A stretch of DNA of 12,022 nt from Cyanobacteria bacterium UBA9579 (lineage in GTDB: Bacteria > Cyanobacteriota > Vampirovibrionia > Gastranaerophilales > UBA9579). Both the position numbers and the translations under genes were made by a program. The notes beneath the pieces are model-generated. The model worked only from the letters and a program-made list of their open reading frames with translations, searched no databases and was not told where the DNA came from. Below, piece after piece: positions 281 to 4,495 of the stretch; the first letter of the stretch is position 1; each line of letters opens with the position of its first letter. Location: assembly GCA_003499585.1 (NCBI GenBank), contig DNSU01000074.1, positions 1-12,022 of the forward strand. Reading direction: 5' to 3'.

Positions 281-405
281 AAGAGGGTATGTTCTTGAAG
301 GAGGCAGCATCGCTGCACCATTATAGCAACAATCTATGTATATTAACTAAGATTAATGACAGAAAGTATCTGGCTTAGCCACTGACGGAGAGAATATACC
401 CTCTT
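281..405 (+). repeat. Palindromic structured element, copy 1
   Basis: Arms 281-295 and 391-405 pair over 15 positions without a mismatch on the plus strand; one pair is G-T (291/395). Inside the stem are a purine-rich segment, a short hairpin GCAGC-ATC-GCTGC (304-316), about 65 bases of AT-rich sequence and a second purine-rich segment. The sequences just inside both arms match the element at 4362-4495: TATGTTCT.G.AGGAG.C at 288-305 and .GACG.AGAGAATATA at 384-399. It fills most of the 186-base gap between asnS and the cysteine protein. No T-run follows the stem on the minus strand, so it is not an obvious intrinsic terminator. A TATAAT lies on the minus strand at 281-276, directly at the edge of the stem, but there is no matching -35 box. 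Confidence 0.7.
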
Positions 406-424
406 AAACCAAAAACTTAAGACA

Positions 425-1726
425 CTAAGGTCTGATTCTCTCCATCATTCTTGGGAATGGGATTGTTTCTCTTACGTGATGCAATCCGCAAATCCAGCTT
501 ACAGTTCTCTCTATGCCAAGTCCAAATCCGGCATGCGGTACACTTCCATAGCGTCTAAGATCCATGTACCACTCAAAAGCTTCTTCAGGAAGTTTATGTT
601 CCTGAATTTTATTTAAAAGAACATCCATATTATCTTCTCTCTGACCGCCGCCTATGATCTCTCCATAACCTTCAGGAGCTATCATATCAACACAAAGAGC
701 CAGTTTCGCATTTTGCGGATCCTGCTTCATATAAAAAGCCTTAACTTCAGAAGGATATCTGTGAATCATTACAGGTTTATCAAACTGTTCTGATATAACA
801 GTTTCTTCATCACCACCAAAGTCATCACCCCATGGGGCTTCTTTGCCATTTTTATTTAACATTTCAATGGCTTCGTCATAAGTGATTCTTGGGAATGGTT
901 TTTTGATGTTTTCCAGCTTGGAAATATCTCTTTCCAGTACCTCAAGCTCGGCTCTCCTGTTTTTAACAACCTGCTGAACCACATATTCAACGAAGTCTTC
1001 TGCGAGATCCATATTGTCATTTAAATCATTGTAAGCAACCTCAGGCTCAACCATCCAAAATTCTGTCAGATGGCGTCTGGTCTTTGATTTTTCTGCCCTG
1101 AATGTTGGGCCAAAGCAATATACTTTTCCAAATGCCATTGCAGCAGCTTCCATGTAGAGCTGTCCACTCTGTGTCAGGTATGCTTTTTCGTCGAAATATT
1201 CTGTTTCAAAGAGATTTGTAGTTCCTTCACATGCCGAAGGGGTAAATATTGGCGCATCTATAAGCAAAAAACCATTATTATTAAAGTAATCTCTGACTGA
1301 TTTTATTATTTCATGCCTGATTTTTAAGATGGCATGCTGTCTTGGCGATCTTAACCATAAATGCCTCTTATCTAACAAGAAAGCCACTCCATGCTCTTTT
1401 GGGGTAATCGGATATTCAACTGATTCACCAATGACCTGAACATCTTTAACACCAATTTCATAACCTATTGTAGATCTCTTATCTTCTTTAACAGTTCCGC
1501 AAACCACAATTGAGGTTTCCTGAGTAATTCTACCTGCATTTTCAAATACTTCTGGATCAACATCCCCTTTAAAAACAACAGCCTGAATTATGCCAGAACC
1601 ATCTCTGACCTGCAAAAAATGCAGTTTACCACTGGACCTTTTATTATAAAGCCATCCTTTTATACAAACATCCTGACCTTCGTATTTGCCTATTTCTGAA
1701 ATATAAGCATGTTTATACTCTGACAT
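425..1726 (-). CDS. asnS: Asparaginyl-tRNA synthetase
   Basis: Class IIb aminoacyl-tRNA synthetase of 433 residues that charges tRNA-Asn with asparagine using ATP in the cytoplasm. Residues about 15-100 form the anticodon-binding OB fold (GWLYNKRSSGKLHFLQVRDG). The catalytic domain follows from about 130. Motif 2 is visible as FRAEKSKTRRHLTEFWMVEP (209-228) and motif 3 as GFGLGIERTVSWICG (400-414). The KAFYMK and GYGEIIGGGQRE segments favour AsnRS over the related AspRS. Start: ATG at 1726, preceded by AAGGAGAGG at good spacing. It is the last gene of hom-thrC-asnS, beginning 34 bases after the thrC stop. A dedicated AsnRS suggests the organism does not depend solely on transamidation for Asn-tRNA. 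No T-box leader or separate promoter was seen. Confidence 0.96.
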   Translation of the reverse strand: MSEYKHAYISEIGKYEGQDVCIKGWLYNKRSSGKLHFLQVRDGSGIIQAVVFKGDVDPEVFENAGRITQETSIVVCGTVKEDKRSTIGYEIGVKDVQVIGESVEYPITPKEHGVAFLLDKRHLWLRSPRQHAILKIRHEIIKSVRDYFNNNGFLLIDAPIFTPSACEGTTNLFETEYFDEKAYLTQSGQLYMEAAAMAFGKVYCFGPTFRAEKSKTRRHLTEFWMVEPEVAYNDLNDNMDLAEDFVEYVVQQVVKNRRAELEVLERDISKLENIKKPFPRITYDEAIEMLNKNGKEAPWGDDFGGDEETVISEQFDKPVMIHRYPSEVKAFYMKQDPQNAKLALCVDMIAPEGYGEIIGGGQREDNMDVLLNKIQEHKLPEEAFEWYMDLRRYGSVPHAGFGLGIERTVSWICGLHHVRETIPFPRMMERIRP

Positions 1727-1760
1727 TTACCTCTCCTTATCTAGTATATGAACCAAATTA

Positions 1761-2834
1761 TTATATATTTAAGACTTTAACAATGTCTTCTATAGATGAT
1801 GAAGTATTTTTGATTTCACAGTTTGAATATTTAATTGCAGAATCAGGGTCTTTCAATCCATTACCTGTTAAAACACAAACAATAGTTGAATTATTCTCAA
1901 TTTTTCCTTCTTTAAATGCCTTGATTAATCCAGCTACAGATGCAGCACTTGCAGGTTCTACAAATACCCCTTCTTTTCTGGCCAATAATCTGTAAGCTTC
2001 AATAATTTCTTCATCAGTCACACTATCTATTATGCCATTAGATTCATCTCTGGCAGCAACTGCACTATTCCAGCTAGCCGGGTTTCCTATGCGAATTGCT
2101 GTTGCAATTGTTTCAGGCTTATAAATTCTTTCACCTTTTACAATAGCAGCTGCACCTTCAGCCTCAAATCCATACATTTTGGGTAAATTAGGAATCAGGC
2201 GTTTTTGATAATATTCTGTAAAGCCTTTCCAATAAGCCGTTATGTTGCCTGCATTTCCTACAGGAATACATAAATAATCAGGTGCCTGACCTAAAACATC
2301 ACATACTTCAAACGCTGCTGTTTTTTGTCCTTCTATTCTATAAGGATTAACTGAGTTCACCAGCGTTAGCGGATATTTTTCAGATAATTCTCTAACAATT
2401 TCAAGCGCCTCATCAAAGTTACCGTCTATTGCAACAACTTCTGCACCGTAAAGCATAGCCTGAGCGAGTTTACCAAGAGCAATATATCCTGATGGAATGA
2501 GAACGAAAGTTTTAATCCCGGCTTTTGCTCCGTATGCAGCAGCAGAAGCACTGGTATTACCGGTACTTGCACAAATTATTGCATTACTTCCTTCTTCTAC
2601 AGCTTTAGAAACGGCCAGAGTCATTCCTCTATCTTTAAAACTGCCTGTTGGATTAGCACCCTCAAACTTAAGGAATAAATTAGCTTTTATTCCAATTTCT
2701 CTGGCTAGATTATCAGCCTTAATTAATGGCGTATTACCTTCATTTATCGATATAACAGGCGTTTTTTCTGTTATCGGAAGATATTTATAATATCTCTCAA
2801 TTAGTCCTTTATAAGGTCTGCACCTTGTATCCAT
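1761..2834 (-). CDS. thrC: Threonine synthase
   Basis: PLP enzyme of 357 residues that converts O-phosphohomoserine to threonine and phosphate. The Schiff-base lysine is K67 in NPTGSFKDRGM. STGNTSASAAAYGAKAG (90-106) is the substrate/cofactor loop, VGNAGN (193-198) is the phosphate-binding loop, and TGNGLKDPDSA (323-333) is the C-terminal signature. The length matches the short class of threonine synthases, without the long N-terminal extension found in the enterobacterial and yeast type. Start: ATG at 2834, 20 bases after the hom stop, with a modest AAAGG nine bases upstream. The pairing with hom places it in the last steps of threonine biosynthesis; homoserine kinase (thrB) must be encoded elsewhere. 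Expression is likely from the promoter ahead of hom. Confidence 0.95.
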   Translation of the reverse strand: MDTRCRPYKGLIERYYKYLPITEKTPVISINEGNTPLIKADNLAREIGIKANLFLKFEGANPTGSFKDRGMTLAVSKAVEEGSNAIICASTGNTSASAAAYGAKAGIKTFVLIPSGYIALGKLAQAMLYGAEVVAIDGNFDEALEIVRELSEKYPLTLVNSVNPYRIEGQKTAAFEVCDVLGQAPDYLCIPVGNAGNITAYWKGFTEYYQKRLIPNLPKMYGFEAEGAAAIVKGERIYKPETIATAIRIGNPASWNSAVAARDESNGIIDSVTDEEIIEAYRLLARKEGVFVEPASAASVAGLIKAFKEGKIENNSTIVCVLTGNGLKDPDSAIKYSNCEIKNTSSSIEDIVKVLNI

Positions 2835-2854
2835 ATTTCTTAACCTTTAATTAT

Positions 2855-4208: not shown

Positions 4209-4221
4209 GACTATTTATTGA

Positions 4222-4256
4222 ACAAAATAAAGAAGCCCCCTGAGCTCGTGAGGGCT
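4222..4256 (-). terminator. Intrinsic terminator downstream of the gmk/nif3/AKR operon
   Basis: On the minus strand AGCCCTC (4256-4250) pairs with GGGGGCT (4240-4234) across a nine-base loop, followed by TCTTTATTTTG. One pair is G-U on the minus strand but a C-A mismatch on the plus strand. The asymmetry and the T-rich tail both indicate minus-strand use. It separates the aldo/keto reductase operon from the hom promoter. Confidence 0.75.
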
Positions 4257-4319
4257 GTGCAAATACGGCATTCATACTTATAGATGTTTTTTCTTAATTA
4301 AAGTTCCTTGTTTTTTATA

Positions 4320-4358
4320 AATTTATAGTTCTACATCAAAAATTAATAACTATAAATT
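4320..4358. repeat. AT-rich inverted repeat
   Basis: Perfect 11-base arms AATTTATAGTT (4320-4330) and AACTATAAATT (4348-4358) around a 17-base spacer. It lies between the large palindrome and the terminator. No function is evident. Confidence 0.5.
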
Positions 4359-4361
4359 AAG

Positions 4362-4495
4362 CCTAGTGGATTGTTTCAAAAGCTATAATGATCATTACAG
4401 GGAGATATATTCTCTTCGTCGCTGGTGATGCCATAGGCATCAAGGCTCCTGCGAGAACATATCTCCCTGTAAAACCAATGAAACAATCCACTAGG
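4362..4495 (-). repeat. Palindromic structured element, copy 2 (134 bases, 17-base perfect ends)
   Basis: The outer arms CCTAGTGGATTGTTTCA (4362-4378) and its exact complement (4479-4495) enclose a second stem. That stem pairs 4395-4408 with 4459-4472 perfectly and continues through 4410-4414 with 4453-4457. At the tip is a hairpin GATGCC-ATA-GGCATC (4427-4441). Read on the minus strand, the inner stem and flanking purine-rich segments match the element at 281-405: 15 of 18 identical bases in the 5' part (4461-4444) and 14 of 16 in the 3' part (4421-4406). It begins eight bases after the stop of the aldo/keto reductase gene, so it would be transcribed as the 3' tail of that operon. No target-site duplication is visible at its ends. 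It could be a non-autonomous mobile palindrome, an RNA-stabilising 3' structure, or both. Confidence 0.8.

Follow-up and report, generated by a model that had tools for sequence, protein, structure and literature searches.

The repeat unit of pneumococcus (RUP) is a 107-bp element with ends that resemble those of IS630-Spn1, as described in parts of PMC2229807 and PMC3049150. For the Correia/NEMIS repeats of Neisseria, processing by RNase III has been proposed (passages of PMC2229807 and PMC5039591). Insertion sequences of the IS630/ISY100 kind target TA, which becomes duplicated on insertion (passages of PMC2170065). In this study, two palindromes were analysed in a stretch of 12,022 nucleotides of contig DNSU01000074.1, which is called the window throughout. 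Copy 1 lies at 281-405 and copy 2 at 4362-4495. An earlier note had taken them for an uncharacterised structured repeat family. We consider it likely that both palindromes belong to one family of miniature inverted-repeat transposable elements (MITEs) of the IS630 (Tc1/mariner) type, which has a folded, conserved core and resides in a Gastranaerophilales bacterium.

Like RUP, the element is a non-coding MITE of about 100 bp with a long stem, TA ends, IS630-like ends and many intergenic copies (PMC2229807, PMC3049150). RUP differs in its Streptococcus host, and the passages concerned report no conserved internal loop or long form; the likeness is drawn from descriptions. Correia/NEMIS elements also have TA ends, a repeat that starts TATAGTGGATT, with TAGTGGATT in common with CTAGTGGATTG here, two size classes about 50 internal bases apart, and a stem-loop RNA (passages of PMC2229807 and PMC5039591). 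The same passages call them unique to Neisseria; apart from the shared bases their repeat is unlike ours, as is their interior. Since only TAGTGGATT is common with the 26-bp repeat variants given in part of PMC5039591 and the host here is Gastranaerophilales-like, the elements are not counted as Correia/NEMIS. BOX elements of Streptococcus pneumoniae share a modular make-up with optional internal units (passages of PMC3049150), but their ends resemble ISSpn2 instead of IS630, and no related sequence was seen. IS630/ISY100 elements of the Tc1/mariner group probably have TA insertion in common with the family, and their transposase has HTH and DDE domains; the element here, by contrast, is without a transposase gene of its own and has a structured core. 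By analogy, it would work like RUP and Correia, and we assign it to neither named family.

The relatives compared were placed by a window protein. The homoserine dehydrogenase of the window has 87% identity to that of G012 and 64-66% to those of G001, G025, G038 and G040. G012 is a genome of 2.5 Mb related to the window host and belongs to the same family as G001, a metagenome-assembled genome labelled Candidatus Gastranaerophilales. This comparison shows that the window host is Gastranaerophilales-like. Two covariance models were used: R1, from seven short copies (copy 2 and six copies of G012), and R2, from 39 copies. R1 was built without copy 1 and detected it at E 7.8e-10, which confirms the earlier claim that the two palindromes are homologous. 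Positions 288-305 and 4461-4444 were identical at 15 of 18 bases, as had been stated. For the 3' parts, 384-399 against 4421-4406 gave only 3 of 16 identical bases as written; after a shift by one base (4420-4405), 14 of 16 agreed by eye, so the likeness stood and its coordinates did not. On the strand described earlier, the folding energy of copy 1 is -37.9 kcal/mol (z -4.1) and that of copy 2 is -75.6 kcal/mol (z -12.1), and 0 of 200 dinucleotide shuffles were as good in either case. The window shows these two copies of the family, with the following parts:

4362..4495, minus strand: copy 2, whole element with CTAG ends (palindrome and stem found, fold, R1 match at E 4.3e-16, absent at the G012 site)
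4364-4365 and 4492-4493: TA pairs of copy 2, the element proper being 4366-4491
4396..4471, minus strand: structured core of copy 2, short form (R1 and R2 matches, in the R1 seed)
278..408, plus strand: structured core of copy 1, long form (R1 match at E 7.8e-10, outside the R1 seed; R2 match, in the R2 seed)
239..427, plus strand: copy 1 at its probable full length, the outer arms being decayed (by eye, GTGTC/GACAC arms and a TGTCC-like left end)
303..386, plus strand: inner part of copy 1, standing where the short form has its tip hairpin (like a dispersed module, reversed, over 22 bases)
4325..4510, no strand: stretch absent at the orthologous G012 site (copy 2 and about 50 flanking bases)

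The terminal inverted repeats of copy 2 are 17 bp long with 100% identity. In copy 1, the script found no CTAG-type terminal motif. Over its probable full length, copy 1 takes up all the space from asnS to the start codon of the following gene, and by eye the asnS stop codon at 425-427 (CTA on the plus strand) coincides with the decayed right end of the element.

Across the family, 71 matches were collected, and L158 was dropped because it lies at the same place as L234, which left 70 copies for anatomy and context. Eight of the 71 matches score 40 bits or less, and some of them may be decayed or chance. The stems sit within terminal inverted repeats of the form CTAGTRSWYTG, followed by TTTCA, ACCGA, TTAA or TCCCA, and the other arm usually matches. 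By script, the terminal motif was present on both sides in 39 of the 70 copies. A TA adjoins the motif on the left in 31, on the right in 28 and on both sides in 24 of these 39, against 299 of 2781 background occurrences. Adjacent copies sometimes abut and share one CTAG. For the IS630/ISY100 group, a preference for TA within CTAG was reportedly described by Tenzen and Ohtsubo in 1991.

Contig C57 of G012 is collinear with the window. At the copy 2 site, it lacks window positions 4325-4510, that is, the element and about 50 flanking bases, and there was a clear gain or loss of copy 2 between the window and G012. The copy 1 site in G012 holds a different, repeat-rich filler, and the G012 copy at 1603-1740 on the same contig lies past the window-aligned part. 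A small A+T-rich palindrome (AATTTATAGTT...AACTATAAATT) at 4325-4361, next to copy 2, is likewise absent in G012 and may have arrived with the insertion of copy 2.

G012 carries an IS630-type transposase gene in two open reading frame (ORF) pieces. Each piece matches NF033545 under its cut-off, and the DDE_3 and HTH domains score above theirs. The ends of this gene (L248/L263) fit the TCCCA flavour of the element, being like those of the MITE copy L261 at 20 of 22 and 18 of 20 positions by eye. Two other IS630 genes of G012 (contigs C111 and C164) were considered as the partner and rejected, since by eye they are flanked by TACTGCTCCAAGAAA-like repeats instead. G025 has one DDE_3 match, whose ends were not matched to the element. 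Three findings together indicate a non-autonomous transposon, that is, a MITE: inverted repeats at the termini with TA/CTAG, an IS630 transposase gene that has these ends too, and the lack of copy 2 in a relative. They had been missed when the pair was called an uncharacterised structured repeat family; the homology of the repeats was borne out, and the further copies and the covariation that would support such a family were found.

The family occurs in few genomes and is abundant in one. In G012, a 15-base piece with at most one mismatch had nine matches and its reversed control two; in G001, the piece had none and the control five. The nine G012 matches are copies with both stem arms. R2 found at least 58 copies in G012 (50 of them at E<1e-6), at least six in G038, one each in G025 and G040, and none in G001, which bears out the expectation of many dispersed copies in a relative. 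The model searches scored only part of the candidates (per genome, 24 for R1 over 192 genomes, 150 for the R2 counts and 9 for the class), and the copy numbers are lower bounds. R1 matched 4 of 192 genomes of the order; in L001-L011, which are 19-21 kb pieces of eleven relatives, it had no match at E<=10. Of 383 genomes of the order, 3 contain the core-loop pattern (at 19 sites in G012, five in G038 and one in G025; one control site, in G025). Across the phylum it matched 4 of 386 genomes, with 19 sites in G012 and one in each of three others that R2 did not confirm; the control gave eight single sites. R2 matched 2 of 382 genomes of the class. This patchy distribution fits a mobile element. 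Three of the 70 copies overlap a called ORF, and the family is short, non-coding and dispersed.

As had been supposed, no Rfam family accounts for these elements. No score exceeded the gathering cut-off, and matches stayed below threshold even at permissive E-values. A blastn search with copy 2 against plasmid and phage records returned 5 and 9 records, whose matches were short and weak and in no case spanned most of the query. In viral contigs, the 15-mer GACGRAGAGAATATA occurred in 108 stretches, where R2 gave no copy at E<=1, and a longer core pattern occurred in at least 120 stretches, among which the best R2 E-value was 0.24.

Pairing in the core is kept while the sequence changes. Among the 39 copies, the paired fraction of cells is 86.7%, and both sides changed in 25 of 29 pairs. 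Cells changed on both sides number 197; shuffles gave 66.4 (sd 6.1), and slid partners no more than 38. In 70 distinct rows, the paired fraction is 86.4%, both sides changed in 27 of 29 pairs, and there are 422 such cells, compared with 135 for shuffles and no more than 93 for slid partners. Both alignments were fitted to our own structure, towards which the pair counts lean, and the copies share descent, which the shuffles do not remove from these figures. The stem is formed by sequences as unlike as GGAGGGTATG, GAGATGGGAATG, GAGTGAGTAGG and AAAATAAAGTATG, and the arms make one long hairpin on a fixed strand. From the outside inwards, the core consists of a paired stem whose sequence is free, the conserved G-U pair, a loop, a co-varying helix of 2 bp and a tip hairpin, again free in sequence. 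Four features that had been noticed in the two window copies hold for the family: this G-U pair, the GGAG-type segment, the tip hairpin and the GACGRAGAG segment.

The loop is a nearly invariant purine-rich internal loop, 5' GNAGGA facing 5' GACGGA. At its constant positions, the base was kept in 55-63 of 63 rows. Mean pairwise identity was 0.86 in the unpaired core columns, 0.55 in the outer stem and 0.38 in the tip. These figures and the G-T counts come from the 63 best alignment rows, with the duplicate L158/L234 included. We infer non-canonical pairing of the two strands, which align antiparallel as G-A, N-R, A-G, G-C, G-A and A-G. The 2-bp helix past the loop switches in concert, mainly between GC/GC and AC/GT. 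The kept stem pair is GU in 53 of 69 rows, GC in eight, AU in seven and UA in one. At the other stem positions, 55 cells are G-T and 27 are A-C (binomial p 0.003, for rows that are not independent); in the 39-copy set, the numbers are 29 and 17. The GU-dominated pair and the excess of G-T over A-C mark the strand that had been read in the earlier note. What is new here is that freely co-varying stems, which keep one G-U pair, enclose a nearly invariant purine-rich internal loop, and that this core occurs in elements whose ends are of three kinds.

Gene context was determined with a longest-ORF script (at least 100 aa), by which 54 of the 70 copies have both neighbours and no ORF overlap; adjacent copies share neighbours. 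Copy 1 is among the three ORF-overlapping copies, through an upstream extension of the next gene. The family sites comprise 35 tandem, 11 convergent and 8 divergent arrangements against 94, 28 and 26 background neighbouring ORF pairs. No preference for gene 3' ends appeared among these 54 copies. A position just past the 3' end of a gene therefore holds for both window copies and not for the family, and a role tied to gene 3' ends is not supported by the unbiased context and orientation. By eye, a GC-rich inverted repeat followed by T's on the minus strand lies at about 4228-4263 and is also present in G012. The aldo/keto reductase gene probably has its true terminator there, and copy 2 would then lie inside a transcript.

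Several observations weigh against an IS630-type MITE with a core that is read in transcripts. In 31 of the 70 copies, one or both sides are without a recognisable motif, and 15 of the 39 both-ended copies are without TA on one or both sides. At the copy 2 site, the G012 gap exceeds the length of the element, so an exact TA duplication is unreadable. The transposase gene of G012 lies at a contig start, where its left end is cut; it is split into two ORFs under the cut-off and may be inactive; no DDE_3 match was obtained in G038 or G040, which both carry copies. Orientation in the tandem sites is unbiased (13 sense and 22 antisense) and lends no support to a function in host transcripts. The same lack of bias bears on the suggestion that the palindromes are host non-coding or untranslated-region RNA acting as a stabiliser or terminator at gene 3' ends. 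Both window copies do follow a gene, and the folds are very stable. We regard this explanation as improbable, because copies lie on both strands of genes with no bias in context or orientation, they have transposon ends, copy 2 is absent at its site in a relative, the distribution is patchy (3 of 383 order genomes by pattern and 4 of 192 by model), and the repeat at about 4228-4263 is by eye a separate terminator-like structure. That the elements are REP/BIME-type repeats mobilised by a RAYT (Y1 transposase) is less probable still. G012 has one Y1_Tnp gene and neighbouring copies sometimes alternate in orientation, but this gene carries its own GTAGGTTGGGT inverted repeats, its 9.5-kb stretch holds no core copy, and G038 has copies without a Y1_Tnp match. 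In the two genomes searched, no RAYT gene was flanked by these elements, and RAYT was rejected as the mover. The RAYT-type Y1 transposase gene with GTAGGTTGGGT inverted repeats at L231:4787-5424 (G012 contig C35) is an unrelated REP-like system.

A MITE whose core has no RNA role is a more serious competitor, which we hold to be possible though not favoured. Its arms would be self-corrected as long DNA palindromes, and the loop would be kept as DNA, in an extruded hairpin or as a host-factor site. The long stems co-vary over their full length, the outer transposon arms included, and gene orientation is unbiased, as this explanation expects. The loop, however, is nearly invariant and yet not self-complementary, and the G-U kept at one position and the excess of G-T over A-C mark one single strand; a single-stranded DNA hairpin would still fit. 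Because the stems vary while the loop is constant, something probably reads a folded single strand. Our best guess is selection on that strand, probably as RNA.

The core also occurs in a long form. In the long copies of G012, a module of about 60 bases (GTGAC..GTCAC..TTAAGTCATCAATCATTCCA) stands in place of the short tip. A 16-base module probe had 15 matches inside listed copies and 12 outside, some of the latter in apparent unlisted decayed copies (L226, L235) and three in a row at the G012 site corresponding to copy 1. Reversed, the interior of copy 1 is identical to the L260 module at 20 of 22 bases (score 34, with no score above 24 among 500 shuffles). Against three other module copies no clear match was found, the scores being reached by 25-42 of 500 shuffles. 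On the strength of the L260 match, the 65 extra bases of copy 1 are probably, not certainly, this module. The module (AAGTCATCAATCATTCCA with a GTGAC/GTCAC or GTGGC/GCCAC hairpin) is itself dispersed, at L415:4005-4141, L226:1496-1571 and L260:3430 for example, and is sometimes in tandem, also within long copies.

In L183, L254 and L164, the core lies between ATACYAATTCGC-like ends on one or both sides, and in L185 it lies between TAAGGAGCAAACAAAAAAT ends. TAAGGAGCAAACAAAAAAT-like ends are also present in loci that have no listed core within 80 bases. The core may be a module shared between transposons. Tentatively, it could even be an independent selfish module, as RNA or single-stranded DNA, whose loop is read by a specific protein and which raises transposon survival; on this view, which we put forward with equal reserve, it would have been taken up by at least three unrelated end types (IS630-like CTAG, ATACYAATTCGC and TAAGGAGCAAACAAAAAAT). 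The plain alternative is nested insertion with loss of the outer ends, and copies with unlike ends are few, four in all. A second MITE-like family with TAAGGARCAAACAAAAAAT ends was seen in G012 (L225:3641-3797, L220:2134, L185:1470-1610), and some of its members enclose GTCATTGCGAGCGAAG-type repeats.

The genes of the window include asnS, thrC, homoserine dehydrogenase and guanylate kinase, together with genes of the aldo/keto reductase-ferredoxin type, NIF3, PTPS, inositol-phosphatase and GHL10. A transposase gene at 11174-12022 is truncated by the window end; its nearest families are IS701 and IS4, under their cut-offs, and no link to the elements was seen.

For the IS630-type MITE, the following course would apply. 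The IS630 transposase would act in trans on the ends, cut the element out and paste it at a TA within CTAG, often beside an older copy whose end supplies the CTAG. The tip hairpin would be replaceable by the module of about 60 bases, giving the long form. The reader of the folded strand, most likely of a transcript, might be, for example, a nuclease or an RNA-binding protein that makes insertions tolerable. A literature search on Gastranaerophilales, in which few subscription papers were covered, returned no paper on MITEs or insertion sequences; one on MITEs with covariation and an internal loop returned no paper, and one on Melainabacteria gave nothing relevant among the matches listed. Overall, a structured MITE family can be added to what is known of this order. 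With dozens of copies in one genome, in which the stems are rewritten and one loop is unchanged, it can be tested directly whether selection on a MITE fold acts at the RNA or the DNA level, and what reads the fold.

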